Positions 19,839 through 60,250 of a DNA stretch of 64,000 bases are shown piece after piece. A program made the translations under genes and the position numbers. The stretch's first letter is position 1. Every line of letters begins with the position of its first letter. This stretch comes from Loxodes magnus (Eukaryota > Ciliophora > Karyorelictea > Loxodida > Loxodidae). Below the pieces are notes generated by a model. The model was not told the DNA's origin. It did not search any database and was given only the letters and a program-made list of their open reading frames with translations. Location: positions 124,001 to 188,000 of the forward strand of contig CAMPDV010000529.1 in assembly GCA_946699065.1 (NCBI GenBank), given 5' to 3'.

Positions 19839-21233
19839 ATGTAAGCGTTACCAAAATGCTTAATCTGCTTAGAAGATTACAACTTAACTAATGCTCTTCC
19901 AACTGTCTTACCTTGTGGACATATTTACTGTGGTTTGTGTTTGAATACTCAGTACTGATTATAAGGCATAATGTAATGTCCTATTTGTTAAAAAGGATTC
20001 CATTTTAGATTTGATGATTTACCTTAAGAAAGTGATTTAATAAGAGTGATATTTTAAAACTAATAATACATATAAAAGATTTAAGATGCTAGATAGAAAT
20101 TAAAAGAGATAAGGAGGTAAATTATGGAAAAATCTAAAACCATTACAACCAAATAATCAAACATTAGTAATACTCTCATAATACCACTAACTAATATCAT
20201 CATCAATCATTAACCAACATTTATCTACCAAAAATAACACTCAAATATTATCTAATTCTACTAATCACTAAAACCAACTATACTCTAATATAACGAATAA
20301 CCACCTACAATACTAAAGTCTAAATTAACTTACAATCTAATAAGATAAAAACTATAATACAATAATAAGTAACCAAATAAGATTTAGACTAATTAACATA
20401 AACTAAGCTAGCACTTTATTTAATCTAACTATATTCACTTTTTTGATTGAACTATTTAAAAATTAAGTTTATTTAATATTTAAACAGAGTAAATACGATA
20501 AATCTAAGTTTAAATTATAATTCCTTTTGGCAATAAAAGTATAGAATATTAAAATAAGTTATATTTAATAGGAGGATATAACTAAAATTAAAAGAAATGA
20601 ATAAAAGAAACTTGATAATTTGATTATGAAGGCAATAGAATAAAACTTAGTGATCTAAATGAGGGAAGAGGTGACTTTGGAATAACAGCTGCTTAAAAAT
20701 AACTTTATGTAGTCGGAGGAATTACTAATAATTATCAAGGTTTATAATCAGTAGTAAAGTTACAGATAGAAGACTAAAGTAAATGATAAAACTGTTCCTA
20801 GTTTCCATTCAAAATAACAAGTTAAACTTTAGTAGTAGATAGAGATGAATAAAATATTTATTCTTTTGGAGGGTTAAATTAGAAAACATAATCTTTAAAA
20901 GATATATGAAAGTATAACATATAGAATGATAGATGGAATAAGTCAAATTTGAGCCTTCCTGAAGCTCTTGTTTATCCTATAGTTTGTTTAGAGCCTTTTG
21001 TCATATTTGGAGGTGTGAAAAATGCATTTAAGAAAGAATATTCAAGAAGAATATATAAAAGAAATAAAGAATAATGAGAATAAAGCCAAATTTTTAAAGA
21101 TGTTTTAGCTTTAACGGAGATGAAAATAAGAAATAACTATGGATATGTTTTTGCTTAAGAATAGCAAAGATTTTCAATAATGAGGATTGATTTAGAAAAG
21201 TTGAGTTATAGAAGTATTAAAAGTAATAACTGA
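19839..21233 (+). CDS. RING finger + kelch-repeat protein, 464 aa (copy 1)
   Basis: Intact ORF of 465 codons from ATG 19839 to TGA 21231-21233. Residues 7-50 are a canonical C3HC4 RING: C7-x2-C10-x15-C26-x-H28-x2-C31-x2-C34-x12-C47-x2-C50 (PCGHIYCGLC, CPICQKGF). A Gln/Asn/Thr/Ile-rich linker follows (about residues 95-230). Kelch blades come next: LYLIGGYNQN, LYVVGGITNN, IYSFGGLNQK and VIFGGVKN, with the expected GG pairs. In-frame TGA gives Trp at QYWLQG, FFDWTI, KKWIKETW, SKWQN, DIWKYN and RWNKSN-type blade positions. RING plus kelch suggests an E3 ligase with a beta-propeller substrate receptor; this is inferred from the domains. A near-identical second copy is at 40157-41551. Confidence 0.92.
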
Positions 21234-28013: not shown

Positions 28014-29636
28014 AAATTAATAAATACTATATTACTGTGTAGTTATTAAAGGAATCCTTAAATTAAAAATTATAATTTAAGTGCCTAATAATTTCAATAG
28101 AATAAAAATAGCTCATTATTAAGATTATTTATGAAGTTGCGTATTATTCGATTTATGGTCTTAGAAAAAACATTGTATTTTATAATGTTATATATTATTT
28201 ATTTTTATATTAAAATATTTTAAATTTTGTATAGATATAATAGTAATAGTTTTTAACTTACACTTAGTATATTTAATAAATAAAAAAGCTTTTGTTTTAA
28301 TGTCTTAGACATAATGAATATTATATTAATTTGCTAATTAATTTCATTTTGCTAATATGCATTATTATTAAAATAAAATCATTTTTATTATTATTTAATA
28401 TAAAGATACTTAAGTTAAAATTTGTATTGCTTATATTCCAAATATTTAAATATTATGTACCAAATGTTTGTTATATGATAAACAATAATTTTTTATTCTT
28501 AAAACTTTATATTTTAAGAATATTTTAGTAAAAATTAAATAATTAAGCAATTTAATCTTATATTCACTTATTATTTATGCCTATAAATAAATTATTTATT
28601 CTTTTATCAAAAGCATGCTCTTTTAATTGGCTTAATCACTAATATTTTTAATATTTATCAATCGTTTTATTAAATTTAATTTTTACTAAAGAAATAAAAT
28701 GACTCGAAAAATTAAATTAATAATTTTTAAGTTAAATATGTTTAAAAAATTTATTTTAGTTATTTGATAAATAAGGATTATATTATAAACAATTAGTTGC
28801 TCTTTCTGTTTGTGATTCTTTTATTTGATATTTATCATCAATTTCTTATTTTATTTTTCTACCAACTATTTTTAATTTATTACTTAATTAAAATTTAATA
28901 ATCAAATTATTTTATACTTGTTCACTAAAGGAGGATAACTGAATATACTAAAAAATCAAATTTTACTTTTAAGTATAAGGGAGAACTATATAAATGATTT
29001 TTACTAAATTCCCATATTATGATTATATTTGGCTTATTAACTTATTATAATTCTATATTATACCTACATTCTTTTAGATTTATACTTGCTTTATTTACAT
29101 TTATTTACATTTATAGTTTATTTTTTGAAAGATTCGAATATATTCAAACTTTTATTTTTTTCCTTTTATAGATATTAAAAAAATTAAATTTATTTTATCT
29201 AAAAATCTTTGGTAGTATAAATCGCTGAGCAAAAGATGGCCTAAGTAACTTTTTAAATTTTATTAATAATGATTATAATGTTATCTGAATTAAAAAAAAA
29301 TAAAAAATTGGTTCGAAATAAAATTTATTCCATTTATACTTATATTTAAAAAATAAATAAAAAAGTAAAAAATTCCATCATTATTCACTAAATACTACAA
29401 AGACATAATCTAAATTAATTAACATTAAAATCTTAATATCCTTTTATAAATAATACCGAACAATGATAAGACTTTTAAAATAACTAAGAAATATAAGCAT
29501 GTAATATATATACCTTAAATAAAAAATAAAAAGAACTTTTAAACTATATAAAAATATAATATAATATAAAATATATTGATTTATCTATTTTTAATAATTA
29601 AAAATTAATTCGTCAAATTTAATTAGTCTTAAATAA
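28014..29636. other. Very AT-rich intergenic region
   Basis: No gene, RNA or repeat recognised. Long A/T runs and short inverted repeats only. TATA-like and poly(T) tracts are everywhere, so no regulatory site can be singled out. Confidence 0.6.
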
Positions 29637-30280
29637 ATTTATTCCTCAACTCTTAACTCGCAATCCTCCACTTCTTCACAATATTGTCATCAGCTCCAGA
29701 TATTAACCATTTATTATCACTACTCAATGCTATAGATTCAATTGATTATGTATGCCCTTAAAGAGTCTATATAAACACACCCGCATTAAAATTCCATATC
29801 TTGATTAAGTGGTCATAAGAGCCAGAAAATATAGCACTTGGATCAGAATTTAGCTGAACACTTGATACATTCTTCGTGTGACCTTGAAGATTACGAACTA
29901 GCTAACCAGTAGAGAAGTCTCATATCTTAATTGATTTATCAGAAGAACTCGATATTATATACTTATTGTCCAAAGTGAAAATTACCGATAAAACATAACT
30001 TGAATGACCAGCCAAATTTTTATGGAGTATACCAGTCTGAAAATTTCAGATATTGATCGTTGTATCTTCAGATGCTGATATGATTCATTTCTAGTCAGAG
30101 GAGATACTACCGATCAAATGATAGAAGTGTGTACCTTCAAAGTTCTTAGGAGGGTATCAGTCTGGAAATTCCAGATCTTTATAGAATTTTCAGGGTATCC
30201 TGAACTAGATGCAATTCAATTCAGGTCATTTGATATGGCTACCGAGTATACATATGAGGAGTGAACAGTGATGACTTAGT
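29637..30280 (-). pseudogene. WD40-repeat gene fragment, one frame break
   Basis: On the - strand at least four WD40 repeats are clear: VYSVAISNDLNWIASSSG with NSIKIWNFQTD, KWIISASEDTTINIWNFQTG, YIISSSSDKSIKIWDFSTG, IFSGSYDHLIKIWNFNAG, and a last blade WLISGADDNIVKKWRI. Several of the blade-ending Trp residues are TGA. The first repeat is one base out of frame with the rest (break near 30105). Upstream of 30280 no further blades are seen, so the propeller is incomplete (a full one has seven). A GT...AG tract of 20 bases (about 30285-30304) directly precedes the first blade and could be a tiny intron. Likely a truncated gene copy; partner unknown. Confidence 0.8.
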
Positions 30281-35307: not shown

Positions 35308-36085
35308 TAGATCGGGTGACCATGGAAAAGTCTTAGCAGATCATAAGGCAAGCTTACTCTTATGTGTACAACACCAGGTCAATATTTATTAATCTACAAA
35401 GGATCTATCCTTTCTGCTTATATGTGATTACTCGTTCTGTTCTGTTAACAGAAATGAGGAGAGCTCTGGGATATAAAAAATATTGTTTTCATAAGTAGAT
35501 AGAAGGCGTAGCTCCTAGATTAGACTCTGACTTAGAGACGTTCAGTTGTAATCTATGCAGATGGTAGTGTAACCAAACGGACTGTTCAACCAATGGCGAC
35601 ACCAAAGATCTGGACCAACAGTTTCTCTCGTACTGAGTTGGATTACTATGGCGATGCAGTGATCAATACAGTAAAATTAAACTGGCTCACTACGGTCTAA
35701 ACCCAACTCACGTTCTCTTTTCACGGATGAACAATACGACACTTGGTGAATTCAGCTTCACAATGATAGGAAGAACCGACATCGAAGAATCAAAAAGGCA
35801 ACGTTGCTATGAAAGCTTGGCTGCCACAAGCCAGTTATCCCTGTGGTAATTTTTCTGACACCTCTGGCTTAAAACTCGTAAAAGGCAAAGGATCGATAGG
35901 CACTGAGAGGTTGAATGAAGCCAGCTTTTCCCCTTTTGGTCTGTGAGCGGTTTCTGTCCGCTCTGAGCTGGTCGTAGGACACCTGTGTTATCTTTTAACA
36001 GATGTGCCGCCCCAGTCAAACTCCCTACCTGGCAGTTTCTCCCATCCAGTTACATTGCTATAAAGTTTCTGTATCCGCTCTTGGT
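35308..36085 (-). rRNA. 28S rRNA 3' fragment (domains V-VI), 5'-truncated
   Basis: The reverse complement carries hallmark nuclear large-subunit rRNA segments in the correct order: GGGAGTTTGACTGGGGCGGC, CACAGGGATAACTGGCTTGT, TTTGATTCTTCGATGTCGG, GTGAATTCACCAAGTG-type, GAGTTGGGTTTAGACCGT, the sarcin-ricin loop AGTACGAGAGAAAC (one base off the usual GAGAGGAAC), and CTGAACGTCTCTAAGTCAGA. It ends in ATGATCTGCTAAGA like the normal 28S 3' end. Everything 5' of the GGGGCGG region is missing. No 18S, 5.8S or ITS is seen. This is an isolated fragment, not an rDNA unit, and some substitutions suggest it is not under rRNA constraint. Confidence 0.93.
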
Positions 36086-36230
36086 AGGAGCTTGAAGCCT
36101 GGCTGCTCATAGCGATGGAGCTCCCTAGCAAATATGCCTGGAGCACAATAGGATATCCCCGTTTTTTCATAAAAAGAGAGCGTCGGGTGAGCAATCGGAA
36201 AGAGTTTCCGGTCCAAAAACTCTTTTAGTT
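36075..36230. repeat. Dispersed GC-rich module, copy 1, with retroposon-like tail
   Basis: About 155 bases matching 62015-62170: CTCTTGGTAGG(A/G)GCTTGAA, TGGCTGCTCATAGCGATGGA, then GGATATCCCCGTT, and a tail GTCCAAAAACTCTTTTAGTT. On its left it passes directly into the antisense 28S fragment. On its right it abuts the broken RING/B-box copy. It may be a SINE-like element borrowing a LINE tail; I could not match its body to a known RNA. Confidence 0.75.
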
Positions 36231-37249: not shown

Positions 37250-40100
37250 GATAATAAGAGGTTTTAATGCTTTTAAATAGCAGATAAACTTTCCTCTCTA
37301 TTTTCCTTAAAATTCTGCATATCCTTTTCGTTTATTAATATCCATGGTGCATATTTTCTCTACTTTAATCGTCTTTATATCCTTTTCAAGTGTTGTTTAA
37401 GTTTCTTTAATTGATTTCATCTAGGAAAATATTTAATTGATTTTTTCTATCTTTTTTTTTGATGCAATCTAAATTTTCTCCTTGCTTCTTATCTCATTTT
37501 AATATAATTATCAATTTATTAACATCCTTATCTAATTAGATATTTACTTATTTCGCCTTCTATTGGAAATTTTTTCTTAGTTTTATTATTTCTGCTGTAT
37601 ATTAGTATTTTCTCATTTAATTTGTTAAAAAAGCCACATATCGCTTTGGTCACTTCTTGGATGCAATTTTATCATTTTCAAAATATGTTACGTTATCTAA
37701 ATTTTCGAAATAGTAAATTCTAATTATCGAATCATTCTTTGAATCACTCTCGAACCTTTTATTGTTTTAACTTTTGAAAATTTATCCTTTTAATTTATGG
37801 GCTTTTTCGATATTCTTCCGCAATTTTTAACTTTATTTTACCTGGCTAATGATTTTCTATTGGTCTCTATTGATAGAATTTTCTGCTGATAATGTTAGTC
37901 ATTATATATTGATCCGTTAAGAAGTATTCTATTTTGAATTTTCCTTTCCCTTATGTTGATGAAAGTTGGATCTTGATTTGGATCTTTGCTTTCTAAAAGA
38001 TAATCTTTCATCAAGTTAAATAAGTATTAGCCTGCATTATTATGCTCATACGGTAAAAATTGGGAAATATGCGCATTAAAATCTTCTATTATTAAAATTT
38101 ATAATCCTCTGCTGTTATTATGTATTATTATAGACTTTCATAAAAGGGTATTAATTAGTCAGAGTCGAATGTTATAGTGCTATATACCTTTATCAATGCA
38201 TGCCGACCATCAAATGTTAAACCTATTAGTCTTCCTCTAAAATAATTCTGCTTGATTAAGATCCGCTATATCCAACACTTTGATTTTGCGGGTAATTCCA
38301 TTTTTTATATAAAATGCTACTCCTTTGCAATGTTTTGTGCTCAATTTTATTATTGCTCTGAATCCGTATATATAAGGAACTTCATCAGTTTAATCCGCAA
38401 ATATTTCTTAAATTGCCATAATTTCTATCTTCTTTTCACACATAAAATTGTTTAATTCTTATTTTATTTTATTCCTCTGACATTTGCTGTGCCAATGTTT
38501 AATTCTTTCTATTTAATTATATTAGTATTTCCTTTTATTTCCTTTTTTTCTTGATCTTCTATCCTGCTTTTTTAGTTCCTCTTCTTTAATAGCGCAAAAA
38601 TCAAATCATTCTAATATTTATTATTTTTTTGTACTTATGTCTTCAAGTATTTTACTCGATACTATCTTCCTTGCCATTATATTTTTTCTATCTTTTTTGA
38701 GACAGTGTTGTGTTTATGCATATTTCCTTTCTGTCGATGTTTTCTAGTTGTTTCCGTTTTTTTCATATTTCCTATTTTATTTTCTGCTTTTTTGGGACAT
38801 TGATAGTTTCGTCTCAGTTTTATTTATTTAATTTTGTAGTTAAGTATCTATTAAAATCGATCGCTTTTAAAGTAGCCTTAGTATTGCTTAAACTTGTTGC
38901 TTTTGCTAGAAATAAAATGTGGTAATCTATTTGAAGGTTAATCTTCTTCAGTTTTCTTCATTTTCTTTTCCTTCGCTATCTGTTTCTCTTTATAATAAGG
39001 CATTTTATTCCTGATTTCTGAACGCATCGACCTGATTTTTACTTCCTTAGCATTTTTAATTGCTTCCTTTATAGCTTTTTTTCTTAAGCATTAATTTGAG
39101 CTGAACCCTTTTTGGTTATAGTTCATACATTTTCAAATTTATGGTTGGCGATACAACGGTACGTGTATAGGATTTCCAGATTGACTCAAGTAAGTACTTA
39201 TACCTCCTTCGTCTAACTTATCTGGTATATTTTCTGCATCTTTGATCTACTTCAATTCTAAATAAGTTTTCATTTTCCCATTGGCTCACGTTGTATCTTT
39301 TACGGTTCCGATCTCTATACATACTATTTTCTGTACTGCTCCAAATTGGTTTCTACCTGGCTAAAACTTGAATACATGCTAAAAGTTCAATGAATCAGAT
39401 AGTTCTTAAAGTTGTAGAATTCCTCTATTTTTCTTTGCTCTATTGGTATTACAACATTCCTAATCTTCTATGTTTAATTATTTCCGAATTGTGCGAGTGC
39501 TTCCTTATTTTTTAATTCTATAATAATTATTAGTGTCTGAAAGATTTTCACACTCTCAATATTTTTACCATTTTCTTAATTCAGATATCTGAGAAATGCT
39601 TGAACGATTTCATTTTCTTGTATTTGTGCGAGGCTGGGTCTTTGGTTGTAATATTTTTCTTCTAAAGATTTATTGAAATAGGTAACTCCTACACTTTAGC
39701 AACTTTGAGTTGCATATTCTCGTCCTCATTTTATGGAATTTGCTCATTCTTTTCTTCTTCCATTATAAGGATTTGCACAGAGATTTTGTCTTGTATGATG
39801 TTCTAAATTATCTATTTTTTTGATAGGTTACTTAGTTTTACCATTTCTGTCCCTTATTTTAGTGGATTCCTCCTAGTAGATTAAAGATTTTGTAACAGAG
39901 ACGTTTTTCTTAAAAATAATATCGTAGATCTGATTAAGTTGTAAAACTCTTTAATGTCTTTATTAATTTACCTTGTAGTCTCGATCTGAGATTGGCAGCA
40001 TGTAGAATATATGATTGCTACTTTATATAATATGCTAGCATAATTTAATGTATGTAAATAAAGTAATAATGTATTTTTAGATATAATTGACAGTATTTTT
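37250..40100 (-). mobile_element. LINE B copy 2: ORF1-like region, APE endonuclease and linker, no RT
   Basis: The - strand reads, from about 40000 down, an ORF1-like region (NIIQDKISVQILIMEEEKNE; later basic KEAIKNAKEVKIRSMRSEIR near 39050). An APE endonuclease follows (LNIGTANVRGIK about 38500; EIFADQTDEVPYIYGFRA; GVAFYIKNGITRKIK; EDFNAHIS about 38080; DPNQDPTFINIRERKIQNR about 37970). Then comes a helical linker (KKDRKNQLNIFLDEINQR, about 37420). RT motifs should follow but the element ends near 37250. Frame changes at several points. Longer at its 3' side than copy 1. Inactive. Confidence 0.75.
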
Positions 40101-40156
40101 GATGGTAACTGTTATAAATTGCCTTTATAGCTTTTGTAGTCTAAATAATAATAAAA

Positions 40157-41551
40157 ATGTAAGCGTTACCAAAATGCTTAATCTGCTTAGAAGATTACAA
40201 CTTAACTAATGCTCTTCCAACTGTCTTACCTTGTGGACATATTTACTGTGGTTTGTGTTTGAATACTCAGTACTGATTATAAGGCATAATGTAATGTCCT
40301 ATTTGTTAAAAAGGATTCCATTTTAGATTTGATGATTTACCTTAAGAAAGTGATTTAATAAGAGTGATATTTTAAAACTAATAATACATATAAAAGATTT
40401 AAGATGCTAGATAGAAATTAAAAGAGATAAGGAGGTAAATTATGGAAAAATCTAAAACCATTACAACCAAATAATCAAACATTAGTAATACTCTCATAAT
40501 ACCACTAACTAATATCATCATCAATCATTAACCAACATTTATCTACCAAAAATAACACTCAAATATTATCTAATTCTACTAATCACTAAAACCAACTATA
40601 CTCTAATATAACGAATAACCACCTACAATACTAAAGTCTAAATTAACTTACAATCTAATAAGATAAAAACTATAATACAATACTAAGTAACCAGATAAGA
40701 TTTAGACTAATTAACATAAACTAAGCTAGCACTTTATATAATCTAACTATATTCACTTTTTTGATTGAACTATTTAAAAATTAAGTTTATTTAATATTTA
40801 AACAGAGTAAATACGATAAATCTAAGTTTAAATTATAATTCCTTTTGGCAATAAAAGTATAGAATATTAAAATAAGTTATATTTAATAGGAGGATATAAC
40901 TAAAATTAAAAGAAATGAATAAAAGAAACTTGATAATTTGATTATGAAGGCAATAGAATAAAACTTAGTGATCTAAATGAGGGAAGAGGTGACTTTGGAA
41001 TAACAGCTGCTTAAAAATAACTTTATGTAGTTGGAGGAATTACTAATAATTATCAAGGTTTATAATCAGTAGTAAAGTTACAGATAGAAGACTAAAGTAA
41101 ATGATAAAACTGTTCCTAGTTTCCATTCAAAATAACAAGTTAAACTTTAGTAGTAGATAGAGATGAATAAAATATTTATTCTTTTGGAGGGTTAAATTAG
41201 AAAACATAATCTTTAAAAGATATATGAAAGTATAACATATAGAATGATAGATGGAATAAGTCAAATTTGAGCCTTCCTGAAGCTCTTGTTTATCCTATAG
41301 TTTGTTTAGAGCCTTTTGTCATATTTGGAGGTGTGAAAAATGCATTTAAGAAAGAATATTCAAGAAGAATATATAAAAGAAATAAAGAATAATGAGAATA
41401 AAGCCAAATTTTTAAAGATGTTTTAGCTTTAACGGAGATGAAAATAAGAAATAACTATGGATATGTTTTTGCTTAAGAATAGCAAAGATTTTCAATAATG
41501 AGGATTGATTTAGAAAAGTTGAGTTATAGAAGTATTAAAAGTAATAACTGA
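40157..41551 (+). CDS. RING finger + kelch-repeat protein, 464 aa (copy 2)
   Basis: ATG 40157 to TGA 41549-41551, exactly the same length as the copy at 19839 and differing by only a handful of bases. Examples are AATAAT/AATACT and CAAAT/CAGAT in the linker (conservative changes) and GTCGG/GTTGG in a kelch blade (silent). All RING cysteines and all TGA-encoded Trp residues are kept. Both copies therefore look functional, or the duplication is very recent. Domain layout and inferred role are given under the first copy. Confidence 0.92.
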
Positions 41552-42257
41552 TAAACATAATAATAATATTTATATTATTAATAGTATTTATAATAAATAT
41601 AATTTTATATGTAATGAAGTAGTTTAAAGATCTATAATTAGGTAAATTTACTACTTATTAAATGGTCAATCTACTAAATACTTTAATAAAGGATATAAAT
41701 AAAGTATCTAAATTTATCTAAACATCTTTAAAAATCTATTATTCAAATACTATCATTATATAGATACAAACATTAAGCTTATAACATGCCAAAAACTATT
41801 TAACACAGTCAAAAAAACTATTTTTAAATACATTTTTATATTCAAATTATACAAGTACTACTTAGATTACTCTATTATTTATCTAATCAAATCATAACTA
41901 TAATCTAATTATCATTAAGCTATACCTATATCTAAATACTAATTAAGTCAACACTATCATCATCAATTCAACATCTTCAAATCTAAAATACATTATTTCC
42001 TTAATATTATTTAAACTAACTACTATATATACTTAAAAAATGTATCTTCTATACCCAATAATTTAATCAAGCCATTTTAACACATATACTCTCGATAAAA
42101 ACTCAAATATAATAACTTTTCGAGATTAATATGATAGATCATTAAACTATACTCAGTTACATCCAAATAAAGTTTTTAGAAGGGATGTCTATTGGTGAGA
42201 AAAAGCAAGAAAAATAAGATGAAATAATAAAATTAACAGAAAATAAAATATTTTAAT
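41552..42257. other. AT-rich intergenic region (copy 2)
   Basis: Duplicate of 21234-21939. Nothing recognised. Confidence 0.5.
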
Positions 42258-42710
42258 ATGCAATTTTTTGAAGAAAATAAAGAGAATAAAATAGAAAACT
42301 TCTTCTAAGAAATAGGAATAATCTATCGATTATAGAGAGACATTTTAACCGTTACAACTCAAGCATAGCAAAAATAAAATAACGTTTGCATTAATGGAAC
42401 TCTTGAGTACTGTTAGAGAGAATTTGGATAATATATAGATTAAGTACGAATATCAGCAACTGGACTTATTCTAACTGTTTTATTTGATTAAGAATAAATT
42501 AATAAATTCTATAACATAAAAAATAATAATATTAAACTTTTTATATTTTAACAAAAAGAAAAACAAATTAATATTACAATAATAATAACTACCTAATTCA
42601 CTTTTATATAAAAAAAAGCTTAGTTCCAACTGAAAAATAATTAAAAGCCTTCACAAAAATAAAACAAAGATTTTTACTTATGTGTAAAGTTAAGTCATTT
42701 GGCAATATGA
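42258..42710 (+). CDS. Hypothetical protein, 150 aa (copy 2)
   Basis: Same length and frame as 21940-22392 (ATG 42258, TGA 42708-42710), nearly identical. I noticed one base change (AAGCAAAG/AAACAAAG) near the 3' end. No family recognised. Too similar to the first copy to tell whether protein sequence is being preserved. Confidence 0.45.
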
Positions 42711-44069
42711 TGATGTGTAAACTATCAAAAAATTAGACACGATACTATGAAGAAGATAAAAAAGCAAATAAAATTAATAATCAATTGGGTTTAAAAATCA
42801 AAAAAAGTAGTAAAATATGTAACAAGAAATATAAATTGAAATAAAAGATAAATAAATATAAATAAGATACCTAAAGAAATGCTAAATAAAGGATAAGAAA
42901 TTATAAAGATTAGTAGCAAAATATTTAATTCTAAAGAATAAAAATTGCTTAAATAATTATTTAATTTGCACCAGAGATAGATAGTAACTGATAGAATAAT
43001 GAAAGATCATTTAAATGAATAAACGCTGAGATAAAATCACTTAAATAACCTAGATTTATGGAAAAAACCAAAGTTTAGCATTATAGGAAAAAAAACGATT
43101 GTCAAAAACCCATTGAACAAAATAAGTTCCAAAAAGTAACTGTTATATTTTTTATCACTCCAATCTTTTTAAATAATTGTTTAAATCTTCAATTCGAAAA
43201 GATAATCCTTTTAATGCATTATACAATTAATTTAGTTTTTTGCAAGAGATATAGCTTTACTTTTTGATTGTGAATGATTAAATTCTTTATAAAAATTCTA
43301 TTATTTTTATTTTTATCTTTATGATCCTATTTATATTTCATTTTTCATTTAGTTTGCTAAAACTTTCTAATCTAATGTTTACTTAATTTCATCTTACAAT
43401 TTATTACTTATTTACAACTCTTTTCTTATCAAATTATTAGCTCATCAAACTGAGATAACACTAACTTTTAAGATCTACAACCCTTCAAATCATAGATAAC
43501 CTAACTATAAGACCTTAATAACTTACCTTTATCTCAATAATTATACCACATTTTTTAATATTTTCTATAAATAATGAGAGAAATACATTAATCTAAAAAG
43601 TAAAAATAATAATATTCATTTTTTCTAATGTTTCTTTAATGTTTAGCAATAATTAAGCAAATAAACAGCATTTACTTTAAAATTAAGTAATTCTAAATTA
43701 TAATAAAATCTTTAATACAGAATTTAGCTTAAAAGCTTCTGCACTTCTATTTAATTAAGAAGAAAAACAGAAAATAAAATATAAGAAATTAGAAATCTTA
43801 ATTAAATAAGCCATTAATAACTTATGATTAAAGCTATACACAATCCAATGAAGATTGTGTAATCAAACTTAAATACTAATAAAATCTAAAAAATTAGATA
43901 ATTAATCAAGTAATAAAAGTAAGATCAATTATATGCTGACTGTGTAGAAGGTTAGGAAACATAAAAAAAGATGTTGGAGATACAAAAAAATAGAAAAAAA
44001 TAATTTCTTAAAAAATCTAACTTAGATTTATTTTGCGTTTAAAAGGACACATAAATAATAATAGTTAAA
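42711..44069. other. AT-rich region (copy 2)
   Basis: Duplicate of 22393-23760 with a few percent divergence. Nothing recognised beyond the short inverted repeat ACACAATC ... GATTGTGT (about 43840-43860). Confidence 0.45.
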
Positions 44070-44838
44070 GTTAAAGTTAAAAAGCTTTATTAAAGCCTTA
44101 GTAGTCAGTCATCTGACCTATTCTATCAGTTTGTCTCCATTAATTTGTCTTGAATTCCTGCTAGGCTTAGTTAGGCGGTGTAGCACTTCATTAGTGCATC
44201 ATCCTTTAGTATTCTGAATAGTTTTGATCTTGCACGTAGCTTTCCTAATTATTTCTCCAAGGATTAAGATTTGATTAAAGAATTTTTTTCTATAAATTTT
44301 TCCGCTTTATGTTGGATATATCCTAAATAGTTTTCTAAAAACATCTTATTTATTCTTTCTTTAAATTCGCTTAGTTAGTAGTAGTATTTTCATTGGTGTT
44401 ATTTATTGCACACGTAGCATTTTATTCTTCTTTTAAAATATTATTCCTGTAACACTTACTTAATTTAAGTTTACTAGTTATTTAAATAAACGTTTACTGT
44501 TTATTTTAATTTGAGGCTTCATTTTCTATTTCCATAGGATCTGATTAATTCTGTTAAAAAGAAAATGGCATTACCTGAATTTATTATTAAATTTAAAGAA
44601 TTCTTTGTTCCAATTTGTTTTCTATTTCTTATGATGATTAATATTGTTTCTCAAGTAAAGACGTTATTAGTTTTTCTAATTTTTCTACTTTATCAGTGAG
44701 GTATCTATTTTTAAACGTAAACTCTTTTAATGACTTAGATAATATTTCTATTTGAGTTTGTGTCGGAAGTTTTTTTAATTCTGGATTTCCAAGTGGTTAA
44801 TGTTCGTCATATCAATCATATTTCTCACTTTCACTCAT
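44070..44838 (-). CDS. Retroelement ORF1-C, coiled-coil protein (copy 2)
   Basis: ATG 44838 (MSESEKYDWYDEH). Near-identical to 24532-23765 through the coiled coil. The C-terminal third differs slightly (e.g. an added T near 44285 and TTATTA/TATT differences near 44400), so the copies may not share one C-terminal frame. It ends in the same TTAACT repeats and ATTATTATT tail (about 44050-44080). Confidence 0.6.
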
Positions 44839-45619
44839 TGTAATTATTTCGCTTTTTTATTTTTAGAGAATTTTCCTGTTTAAATATTTTGTTCAAAGTT
44901 CTGTTATTTCTTATAAGACATTTTATATATATTTTTTATTTTAAATAACTACATTTAAGTATCTTTAGAATTTTTTAAGAATCAAATTATTTTTTGCGAT
45001 TTTTCCAACTTTTTAATCCATTTATTAAACTAAAATTAGACTAATAGATTTTTATTATTTATAGTATTGATTAAAATAAAAAAGATTTAGTTTAATGAAA
45101 TAAAAGTAAAATAAAATAATAGAATTAGTTGAAATAGATATTAGTTCAATGCTTAGAATTAAGCTGTTTATTAAGCTCTTATTTGTTTTTAATAAATTTT
45201 ATATTAATTTATTTAAAGGAAAGTATTTTAATTTATTCTTATAAACTAATTAAAATTTAATATTTTTTAATTATTATATTTTATTAATACTTCTATATAA
45301 TAATAATAGAAATCACGAATTATACTGATACCATCTTCAATTAGGTTCATCACTGGGTAATTACTTAAAGTTATTTAAAATAATTTCCTTTACATAAAAA
45401 CTTCGAAGTCTCCCTTAGTTTTATATTATTCTATAACAATTCTACTAGTTTTCTTTTTGCCTATCTTGATTTTAGGAATTTAACTGAAATGCGGATTATT
45501 TTCGAATATTTATTAATACTGTCGCATTTAGATTTCTCCAAGCATAGTAGCAAATTTTTTCAATTCAGCATTTTAAATCTTTGAAAAATATCCTAAAAAA
45601 CAAAAATAGTTTACAATTA

Positions 45620-46736
45620 ATTAATTATAAGCTTTAAAAATTTCTCTTTGAGGGACTGGAAACTTCTTTCCAGCTAGACAACTCAAAACACTCTCTTAAT
45701 ACACTCAGCGCCGATATCCTGCTGCTTAATTAAATAAGCTTCGGTCCTGGATTCCATAACATTGAGATGACTGACTTCAAGTTGATAGCAAGAGTAGATA
45801 ATTGGAAGGATTTTGTTCACTTGATGAGGTTGACTCTAACATGGGACTTCTCAGCGAATAGGAACTTGCCCTTATCATAAGACTAGAAGGTTTGATCAGA
45901 TTAAAAAAAATTAAAGTTTATAGTTCTTAGGGAGAGCTTTACAAATATCTTCCATTTTCTCCTGCTCTCTCTTAAACTAAAGGATGTCGTAGGATTTCAC
46001 TATTCCGCCATCCTTATCTCCTTCCTGAAATCTAATTGTCCTTCAGGTTCCTTCTCCCGTTATTAAAGTCGTTGGCTTTTGAGTTGTAGAATTTCTTTCT
46101 GTAAATTTATCCTGTCCTTGTTGATCAAAAGCGAAATAATTCATCTAGGATTTTATTCTTATTATTTCTTTCTATTTCTGGTTTCTTTCAGCAATTTCTC
46201 CAGCAGTGCTTTCTTTTAACATATGTAGCACCGTATTTTTCTCAGATAGAATTTAATCTATTTTGTTTCTTATTATTAGAATTACGATTCGATTGCCATT
46301 GGGATACTTGGTTACTAATCAAATTATTTTAGATTATTACTTGTTAATATTCTTATTTTTCTTAAAGTTACTTTATTTGATATTCAAATTTAGAAAAATA
46401 AAATTAGAATATTTGAGAGACTTCGTTAAATTATTTATCAATTTATTCAAATTTAATTACTATTTACGATTAGATTTTACTTAGTGATTCTTCTATCGAG
46501 GCGAATTATAGATTTAATTATTCAATCAGTTTTTCTAGCTTGTCTTATAGTTTTTCTTTCCTTTATATTTATAATTTTAATTCGTATTAGATATTTGATA
46601 CTCTTTGCTGTACCGATTATATGTAAGTCTCCTTCGATTATATTTCTTAGATTTATTGCGGCTCTTATTCCGTTAGGTTAGATTATTATTCTTGTTTTTT
46701 AAATGAGCCGAAAGAGGTCTATTTATTAGTTGCCAT
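45620..46736 (-). CDS. Retroelement ORF1-M, coiled-coil protein (copy 2)
   Basis: ATG 46736 (MATNKQTSFGSFK; Thr in place of Pro at residue 3). Same coiled coil and GC-rich C-terminal block (about 45650-45900) as the copy starting at 26429, with scattered substitutions. Some are in the C-terminal block (ATCGGAAAG/TTGGAAGGA), so it is drifting. Same caution about frame as copy 1. Confidence 0.58.
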
Positions 46737-47544
46737 TTTTCAATATAATATAATAAGCCTCAGTTCGAGCCATCTTTTCATTTATCTATTTTTAATTATT
46801 AGTGCATACTTTTAATAAAACTATACATATCATATAAAAATTTTAATATTTAATACTTTTAGATTTTCTATTATTTAATAAGACAAAAAAGATATGAAAC
46901 TTGAAGATAAATGAAATTTCTTCAACAAATCTATTAAAAATAATGCTATACTTCTTATTTCTAAATTAATTTACTAAATAATAAATCTCCTTGCATTTTA
47001 ATTTGTGAAACTATTTTTTTGCATCTATGTCTTTTGGAATTACTATATTTAGATATTTACTGTAATATTTTTGCCCTAAATTCTTGTACAACTTAAATTA
47101 ATTTCTTATAAAATTTAGTTTTTGCTTTATAAATCTGTTTGAAAGAAAGATTTTCTTTTTAAACTATATCTTTACCTTATCATTGTTTATCTTATAAAAT
47201 AGTTGCTTTTGAGAATTAAGTTTTATGTTCAAATAATCTAGCAATTTTTTGGTTTATATATGACATAACGAATACTTAAATAAGAATCTTTATAATATGA
47301 ATAAAATAGATTAATGAGTAATAAATAATGACTATTTCTAATTAGAAAATGAATATGAAAATGAATATGAAAGTATTTTAATTTAATTTCTTGATAAGAT
47401 CTTTTAGATATATATAAATGCTTATTATTTTTAAAATTTATATTAAACAAAATATTTTAAATATTATTATGTTTATGAATTTTAGTAATTCAGATACTGT
47501 AATTACACTCCAAAAAGATAGAAAAAATATAGAGGCTGTGCTAA

Positions 47545-58532: not shown

Positions 58533-60250
58533 ATGTCTCAAGCTACTTAATATAACAGAATAGCATTAAAATTTATGAAGGAAGCTAATTATCATAAGGC
58601 TATCGAGTAATTTAATATAATTATCATGCTAGATCCAAAATATGCTGCTGCTCATACTTATAAAGGAGTTGTCCTGAAGATGCTAGGAAAATATGATGAA
58701 GCAATATAGAGCTACAATGTAGCTCTCAAACTAGATCCTAAAATGGTATCTGCTTATTTGAATAAAGGATTATTACTGAAACAAATAGGAAAATGTAACG
58801 AAGCCATATAGAACTATGATATAGCTCTCTAATTAGATGCTAATTTAGTGGCAGCTCACTATAACACAGGAACTTTGCTGGGATAATTAGGAAAGAACGT
58901 CGAGGCGATATAGAGTTTAAATGTAGCTACGAAGCTAGATCCTAGATTAGTAGATGCTCACTTTAATAAAGGAGCGATTTTTATTAAGCTAGAAAAGCAC
59001 AATGAAGCCATTTAAAGTCTTAATTAAGCCATCAAATTTAATCACACTCTACCAGATCATTTCAAACTCAAAGGTTTTTCTCTTTTTAAATTAGGAAATC
59101 ATCTTGAAGCTATCTAATGCTTCAACTAAATTATCTAACTAGATCCTAAGTACTCAAATGCTTTTTATGATAAAGAACTTTGTCTTTAAGCTTTAAACAA
59201 GAAATAAGAAGCACTAGAATGCTTCAGCAAAGCAAAACAACTAAATCCTGAATTAGAAACTCCCTAAACAAAAATAAAAAATGAAGTAAACTAAGTAAAG
59301 AATAAAATAACAGAAGAAGAAATAAGGAAGTTCCTATAGCAAATAGATAGTAGTTGTGAAGTAAGAATATGGAAATATAGAGATTTGGTTCCTAACAATG
59401 AATTTTTAGGGAAATTGCAAAAATTGGCTTGTGATGATTTCGGAACTACTTATCTGGCTTGTATCTAAGGATTCATGTATGAATTTAAAGTATTTAACTA
59501 ATAGAATGATAAAATAATAGATTAGTTCTGATTTGAATGTAAAGAACTACTGCTAATAAATAGCTTAAGAGTTTAAAAACTTATAGGATTTGCTATCGAT
59601 ACTTAAGAACTCGCTCTTTTAACTGATTTTTAGAATAAAGGAAGTTATTCTAAATTATTGAGACAAAGTAGTTATTCAAAACTGCCATTCTAGATACTAT
59701 AAGAAACTTAAATTACTTAGTTAAATAGCAGAAGGTTTGAAGGCTATTCACGCTAGAAACTTAATTCATAAATAAATAAAATCTCTTAATATTCTGTTAG
59801 ATGATTAAGATTTTCCTAAAATACTAACTCTTGGATTATTTAATAAAGATAACTGATTAAGAGCAATAGAATAGAAAGGTGAACATCAATGAATGGCTCC
59901 TGGATAATTTGAAAAGAAAGTGAGTAAAAAAAGTGATATTTGATCTTTAGGTTGTATAGGAATAGAAATATTCAACGAATAACTTTTTTATCCAATTCTA
60001 GATTCTTAGTTAAAGTAAATAATCTATATCGATAAAATGATACCTAGGTTTTAAAACGAAATATACCAAGAACCTTTATTAGTTGATTTATCTATAGATG
60101 TTTAGCTTTCGACGAGAATATTAGACCAGATATAGATACTTTTATAAGTTAGTTAGAACATATAATATTAAAGTGAAATCCACATGCAGATATAAGTCAT
60201 TAACTTACATCATTTCTATAAGAGAAGTGAAAAAGTAGAGGTAAAAACTA
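58533..60250 (+). CDS. TPR protein with C-terminal pseudokinase domain; two frame changes
   Basis: ATG 58533. Seven 34-residue TPR motifs fill residues 4-240 (e.g. AAHTYKGVVLKMLGKYDEA, LNKGLLLKQIGKCNEAIQN). A kinase domain starts near residue 275: a loop DDFGTTYLA, the ATP-site Lys in EFKVF, a helix-C-like FECKELLLINSLR, a hinge LLTDF, then AEGLKAIHARNLIH, KQIKSLNILLDD, HQWMAPGQFE, SDIWSLGCIGIEIF and ILKWNPHADISH. The catalytic HRD Asp is replaced (HKQIKSLN, Gln from TAA) and DFG reads TLG, so a pseudokinase is likely. The frame moves by one base near 59690 and back near 60120. TGA-encoded Trp occurs at QFWFE, HQWMAP and DIWSLG. Ends near 60250, exact stop unclear. TPR plus kinase suggests a signalling scaffold. 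Confidence 0.82.

Follow-up and report, generated by a model that had tools for sequence, protein, structure and literature searches.

Organization of the TPR-kinase locus

Positions 58533..60250 of the 64-kb stretch of Loxodes magnus DNA analysed here (hereafter called the window) harbour a gene that combines TPR repeats with a kinase-like domain (Table 1). The TPR part matches TPR proteins, the best match being at 2.1e-85. The kinase domain shows two frame changes, at ~59,640-59,710 and at ~60,091. The former is common to a close paralog on contig C143 (L212+L208+L213), and it possibly corresponds to a short GT..AG intron, judging from the sequence. In the sections of Seah et al. 2024 (PMC11441545) used here, L. 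magnus introns have a mode of 17 bp and 93% of them do not exceed 25 bp. The latter frame change is a one-base indel relative to the paralog L208/L213. Because this paralog lacks the break, the window copy is probably a pseudogene, pseudogene decay being the likely source of the break. In such a frame-broken copy, the TGA codons taken alone could therefore have been nonsense mutations; this doubt is removed by the paralogs and by conserved genes that show TGA at Trp positions, as described below.

We compared the gene with four paralogs (L208-L211) out of its 149 listed matches other than the window itself. At the three TGA columns of the kinase domain, only TGA or TGG is found across these four genes, including at the Trp of SDIWSLG, which we take to be the conserved kinase Trp. 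The dN/dS ratios relative to the most distant paralog, L211, range from 0.18 to 0.24 (0.23 for the window copy). The window copy yields a ratio of 2.2 with its closest paralog, based on very few changes, and 0.42 and 0.56 with the two others.

The kinase-like family is huge, with 3,259 first-look candidates and at least 149 matches besides the window, at 65-85% identity. In the window copy and in L208-L211, the HRD motif is replaced by HKQ or HKE and the DFG motif by TLG, TFG or ILG. As both motifs are altered, the members of this family may be pseudokinases. Elsewhere, the window carries a direct segmental duplication with a RING- and kelch-containing gene in each copy, an inverted repeat and an isolated 3' portion of a large-subunit rRNA gene (Table 1).

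Table 1. Features of the window discussed in the text (positions are those of the window)
Feature	Position	Strand	Remarks
TPR-repeat coding stretch, 255 codons	58533..59298	+	many in-frame TAA/TAG, 0 TGA
Putative short intron (GT..AG; 25 or 28 nt)	59644..59671	+	would explain the first frame change
Kinase-like domain, single-frame part	59704..60066	+	3 in-frame TGA; PF00069 65.8 bits with TGA read as Trp
TGA in KDN-W-LRAI	59854..59856	+	TGG in paralog L211; TGA in L208-L210
TGA in HQ-W-MAP	59890..59892	+	TGG in paralogs L210 and L211; TGA in L208 and L209
TGA in SDI-W-SLG	59941..59943	+	TGA in 4/4 paralogs; Trp top in substitution
One-base frame break	60088..60094	+	indel relative to paralog L208/L213
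WD40 repeats, 3 in-frame TGA	29620..30126	-	TGA at 30085-30087, 30046-30048, 29920-29922
Kelch repeats, 5 in-frame TGA	20556..21125	+	TGA at 20598, 20613, 20784, 20907, 21075
Direct segmental duplication, ~8.8 kb, 95.6% identity	18270-26977 and 38510-47287		RING + kelch gene in each copy
Inverted repeat, 1.1 kb, 97% identity	3014-4134 and 54387-55510		copies ~50 kb apart
3' fragment of large-subunit rRNA	35309-36168	-	Rfam RF02543, 474.8 bits

In-frame TGA, TAA and TAG codons in the domains of the window

With the standard stop codons, the window contains no complete open frame of at least 150 aa, frames that run off its ends not being listed. The initial annotation had warned that standard-code annotation would fail here, which is indeed the case. 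When the coding frames were segmented according to codon usage, the procedure converged on a single gene or on noise-like stretches, and therefore we resorted to known domains. In these tests, the in-frame codon was set to each of ten residues, and the resulting profile scores were compared.

For the kinase part, the PF00069 model gave 65.8 with Trp, 64.6 with Tyr, 60.9 with Phe and 50.6-54.2 with the seven other residues, and PF07714 gave 56.5 with Trp and 52.4 with Tyr. The fragments generated by translation with table 6 that could be scanned yielded 32.3 bits for one and no match for the other. Two of the TGA codons in the WD40 part are located in IW(N/D) motifs, at a position where another repeat has TGG. 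The scores for this part were 119.6 (Trp), 115.7 (Tyr), 113.7 (Phe) and 101.5-107.3 (all others) with PF00400, and 134.0 (Trp) and 129.1 (Tyr) with the WDR5 model; the table-6 fragments reached 76.1 and 30.6. Several overlapping propeller models nevertheless favour Tyr over Trp, namely WDR3_1st (134.7 versus 126.2), Prp19 (108.3 versus 105.7) and MABP1-WDR62_2nd (90.8 versus 72.0). For the kelch part, the top model gave 55.1 with Trp, 53.9 with Tyr and 53.6 with Phe, and the table-6 fragments scored at most 16.4 bits. Trp is favoured by Kelch_1, Kelch_2, Kelch_3 and Kelch_6, whereas Tyr scores higher than Trp with Kelch_4 (56.4 versus 54.3) and NANM (45.7 versus 43.7).

Thus, the proposal that TGA occupies Trp positions in the kinase, WD40 and kelch domains is borne out by the main models, in which Trp ranks first of the ten residues with Tyr close behind, and all three domains lose score when fragmented according to table 6. 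The LRR case was recognized by eye. In single domains of the window, the signal carried by TGA is aromatic first and Trp second, and the split between Trp and Tyr or Phe is weak.

The TPR part is less informative for TAA and TAG (hereafter TAR). When the TAR codons were substituted, the MamA model scored Gln (99.4), Glu (100.9), Lys (99.9) and Arg (100.5) alike, with Tyr, Leu and Trp clearly lower. The evidence that TAR means Gln comes from genes elsewhere in the genome. The assignment of these codons to Gln in the initial annotation stands for the genome, but Gln is not singled out in the TPR part of the very gene for which it was put forward.

TGA codons at Trp positions of conserved genes

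We searched the L. magnus assembly (705,730,643 bases in 7,843 contigs) for conserved genes. The ubiquitin-conjugating (E2) set comprised 40 distinct genes out of 150 matches listed, many of the others being identical tandem copies. One such tandem array, at C32:80272-102824, has a 716-bp unit and includes at least 31 matches that do not differ in score or in stop content, as well as a partial one.

In the invariant Trp column of the 40 E2 genes, we found TGG in 18 cases, TGA in 21 and TAC in one. A second column harbours 18 TGG, 7 TGA and 15 other codons. Over the whole alignment, 28 of the 43 TGA codons are found in Trp-majority columns for a Trp background of 1.6% (binomial 6e-40, uncorrected for shared ancestry). 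Scatter of TGA over non-Trp columns would have told against the Trp meaning; in this family, the majority of TGA codons do follow Trp columns, and the 15 others are located elsewhere. Similarly, TGA encodes the Trp of LRAW, presumably the NF-YC motif that holds a Trp, in both NF-YC copies.

The cyclophilins are less clear. Among 20 genes, one column harbours five TGA, four TGG and six His codons and is not Trp-majority, and the other two of the seven TGA counted belong to a Tyr column. Owing to these His codons and to that Tyr column, the cyclophilin majority does not vote for Trp. Cyclophilin subfamilies with Trp at both of these places exist. In the H2B tail, one TGA of L089 aligns with an Arg of the paralog L087.

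TAA and TAG codons at Gln positions

In histone H3, we considered nine columns in five genes, located within the N-terminal 27 or the C-terminal 99 residues. The 45 cells contain 27 TAR codons (15 TAA and 12 TAG) and 18 CAR codons (15 CAA and 3 CAG), and nothing else. The two eRF1 copies, L011 and L012, are on contig C196, and L011 matches PDB eRF1 chains at 6e-155. In the aligned part of L011, 9 of 19 TAR codons are found at Gln residues of 1dt9, which we take to be the human eRF1 chain, including Gln185 of the GGQ motif. This catalytic Gln is encoded by TAA in both copies. L011 and L012 are weaker PF03463 matches than L010, which was rejected as eRF1: neither NIKS nor GGQ is apparent in its frame, and it appears Dom34/pelota-like by eye.

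In the cyclophilins, Gln is the commonest majority residue of the TAR columns (25 of 93). In the TAA-weighted columns of the E2 genes, Gln reaches 5.1% for a background of 1.6%, with Lys and Glu on top; the E2 test is weak for TAR because CAR codons are rare in this family.

tRNAs and eRF1

A tRNA-Gln pattern yielded 465 matches, and the anticodons TTA, CTA, TTG and CTG are all represented among the 100 matches listed. Thus, both tRNA-Gln(UUA) and tRNA-Gln(CUA), which the initial annotation had suggested looking for, are present in the assembly. The tRNA-Trp(UCA) that it had also proposed was not found by pattern search: the tRNA-Trp pattern, which allows CCA or UCA, gave 125 matches, and all 100 listed have CCA. 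A pattern dedicated to UCA and describing one tRNA shape gave one match, where ARAGORN detects no tRNA, versus four in the reversed control. The UCA tRNA expected in ciliate mitochondria (an expectation taken from a portion of PMC4967479) was likewise not observed.

In tRNA-Trp(CCA), 27A faces 43C, leaving an anticodon stem of 4 bp with a 7-nt loop, whereas the four tRNA-Gln have 5-bp anticodon stems. From the passages of Fakih et al. 2026 (PMC13092985) relevant here, a tRNA-Trp(CCA) with a 4-bp stem is the published UGA reader in Blastocrithidia and Condylostoma, and the same shortening has previously been described in Loxodes. The Loxodes stem is likewise cited in the corresponding part of DeMontigny and Bachvaroff 2025 (PMC12005148). 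The 100 tRNA-Trp matches listed form long tandem arrays at C67:482323-491201 and C148:155464-169421, with units of ~187 and 241 bp, respectively. We also observed a tRNA-Gln-like gene whose anticodon loop comprises 8 nt (L009:1470-1542, contig C1668), and for which ARAGORN gives the anticodon ttaa.

Changes in eRF1, also anticipated, were detected. The NIKS and GTS motifs are kept, and Ser70 is replaced by Ala, Glu55 by Ala, Ser60 by Gln (encoded by TAA) and Tyr125 by Phe (human numbering). An excerpt of PMC12153298 includes Ser70 and Glu55 in the set of eRF1 residues that recognize stop codons. We draw no mechanism from these substitutions, since Swart et al. 2016 (PMC4967479) saw no simple link between eRF1 changes and codes, as stated in the part of that work considered here.

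Codons that end genes

We read gene ends where the C-terminus is known or supported by paralogs. The genes examined were 29 of the 31 histone-fold genes, 40 E2 genes of the 150 matches listed, 20 of 96 actins, 18 of 21 dynein light chains, 20 of 27 cyclophilins and both eRF1 genes. We could judge 114 ends, namely 25, 35, 17, 18, 17 and 2 in the same order; as many of these genes are close copies, the 114 ends do not represent independent events. Those left out are four histone-fold genes whose ends are unseen or ambiguous (L091, L092, L100 and L101), five E2 (L115, L118, L119, L123 and L138), three actin (L166, L168 and L169) and three cyclophilin genes (L204, L205 and L207). TGA is the stop codon at 106 of the 114 ends (23 histone-fold, 32 E2, 15 actin, 17 dynein light chain, 17 cyclophilin and 2 eRF1 genes), and TAG at none. 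In the eight remaining cases, TAA is present at or near the expected end, ahead of any TGA. The two eRF1 genes end in TGA, with a second TGA three codons later.

The E2 genes indicate that sense TGA is avoided just ahead of the stop. The Trp of their C-terminal AREW motif is encoded by TGG in 26 of the 26 genes with a Trp there and never by TGA; by comparison, the internal Trp is encoded by TGA in 21 of 39 (Fisher 1.3e-6). A TGA is found 7-11 codons past the AREW Trp in 22 of these 26 genes, the exceptions being L115, L129, L136 and L138. Two E2 genes, L118 and L119, continue into a further domain, and the same Trp position is a TGA in both, by eye. This pattern, with TGG near the end and TGA in about half of the internal positions, is what the published position model predicts, in which UGA means Trp except near the mRNA end (PMC11441545 and PMC4967479, each in the part used).

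Weighing the possible codes

Altogether, the E2, eRF1, cyclophilin and H3 genes show that conserved genes in L. magnus use each of TAA, TAG and TGA as a sense codon, as the initial annotation had it, and fitting tRNAs are present. We consider it very probable, from sequence evidence, that the window belongs to the L. magnus MAC genome and that it follows the karyorelict code, table 27, in which TAR encodes Gln, whereas TGA encodes Trp inside genes and is also the codon that usually ends them. The initial annotation is right in substance, and the code that it describes is already published: the 706-Mbp MAC assembly of L. magnus is assigned NCBI table 27, UGA being its sole stop codon, according to the portion of Seah et al. 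2024 (PMC11441545) at hand.

Tables 27 and 28 had both been named as candidates. A Condylostoma-type code (table 28) would make each of the three codons sense inside genes and an ordinary stop at their ends. The eight genes with TAA first (L078, L081, L129, L136, L137, L164, L165 and L178) speak for such a code. From this TAA to the next in-frame TGA, there are 2 codons in L178 and 5 in L078. The distance is 23 and 40 codons in the actin-related L164 and L165, which end in HSKTF-TAA and HYKTC-TAA, respectively. It amounts to 86, 94, 168 and 182 codons of AT-rich DNA in L137, L136, L081 and L129, respectively, although the expected end of L137 is less certain than the others. In the latter four genes, the GC content falls past the TAA, most sharply in L081, which ends in LTDM-TAA-TAA-TAA and where it drops from 0.40 to 0.17. 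However, 106 of 114 ends in TGA and none in TAG do not fit three ordinary stops. Moreover, TAG is found 2-7 codons ahead of the terminal TGA in L094, L107, L108, L112 and L194, and the two eRF1 and two NF-YC genes read through a TAA situated 14-15 codons ahead of their final TGA. The end counts refute table 28 as the main rule, leaving a possible minor role for UAA; we regard this code as very improbable for L. magnus, and of the two candidates only table 27 fits.

A Tetrahymena-type code (table 6), in which TGA is always a stop, would make the in-frame TGA codons nonsense mutations in decaying copies. This reading gains some appeal from the window gene itself, with its one-base frame break where the paralog has none, and from the fact that TGG becomes TGA by a single G-to-A transition. 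It fails on the conserved genes, as 21 of 40 E2 genes and two of two NF-YC genes carry TGA for their invariant Trp. It is also at odds with the kinase family, in which the columns of the window TGA codons hold only TGA or TGG in four paralogs and dN/dS is 0.18-0.24 relative to the most distant of them. Decay from CGA, AGA or GGA would in addition give TGA at Arg or Gly columns, for which we found one Arg case. Conserved genes, with TGA in their Trp columns, rule out pseudogene decay as a genome-wide source of TGA, and we give table 6 practically no credence.

Under table 27, the preferred code, TAA and TAG would be decoded as Gln by tRNA-Gln(UUA) and tRNA-Gln(CUA). As inferred from the literature, the shortened anticodon stem might let tRNA-Trp(CCA) read UGA, and the stop function of UGA would be confined to the vicinity of the mRNA 3' end, where release would outcompete tRNA-Trp.

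The statement that TGA is the only stop may not strictly hold here, as 8 of the 114 ends show TAA ahead of TGA. Seah and colleagues reportedly remarked in 2022 that UAA may end a small share of karyorelict transcripts. We see an even chance that UAA, in spite of its frequent use for Gln within genes, still stops a few L. magnus genes, in which case the code would lie between tables 27 and 28, with UGA and UAA, unlike UAG, terminating genes near the mRNA end. With such a reading, L081, L129, L136, L137, L164 and L165 would be examples of UAA stops. In the section of Seah et al. 2024 (PMC11441545) on this point, UAA and not UAG is depleted ahead of L. magnus stops, a bias that would be the footprint of UAA termination if the latter is genuine.

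Implications and comparison with known systems

Standard gene finders fail on such genomes, in which TGA means Trp or stop according to its position. Our analysis amounts to an independent check of the published code without transcript data. In the E2 genes that were fetched, the internal Trp is encoded by TGA about half of the time and the Trp adjoining the stop never is. The genes that possibly end in UAA suggest a reassignment that is not yet complete.

The code described here has the features of the karyorelict table 27, known from Parduczia and Loxodes: UAR encodes Gln, UGA means Trp or stop and is the usual stop, and sense UGA is absent near the stop. It departs from table 27 by the small minority of ends that resemble UAA stops. 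The initial annotation held that only Condylostoma and karyorelict ciliates combine these reassignments, but this list is incomplete, as all three codons are also sense in Blastocrithidia and in Amoebophrya sp. ex Karlodinium veneficum, according to the parts of the literature cited below. In the excerpts of PMC13092985 and PMC4967479 used, Condylostoma magnum (table 28) similarly has three sense codons, tRNA-Gln for UAR and a tRNA-Trp(CCA) with a 4-bp stem, and a tRNA-Trp(UCA) was not found. C. magnum ends its genes with UAA, UAG and UGA, whereas L. magnus has no TAG among 114 ends. Blastocrithidia resembles L. magnus by its three sense codons, its 4-bp-stem tRNA-Trp(CCA) and a change at Ser70 of eRF1, as reported in portions of PMC13092985 and PMC12153298. 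It differs in that UAR encodes Glu, UAA is the stop and Ser70 is replaced by Gly, rather than Gln, UGA and Ala, respectively, in L. magnus. Lastly, Amoebophrya sp. ex Karlodinium veneficum also reads UAR with cognate tRNAs and UGA probably with a 4-bp-stem tRNA-Trp(CCA), in the passages of PMC12005148 that describe it; this organism is a dinoflagellate in which the NIKS motif of eRF1 has become RIKS, whereas L. magnus has kept NIKS.
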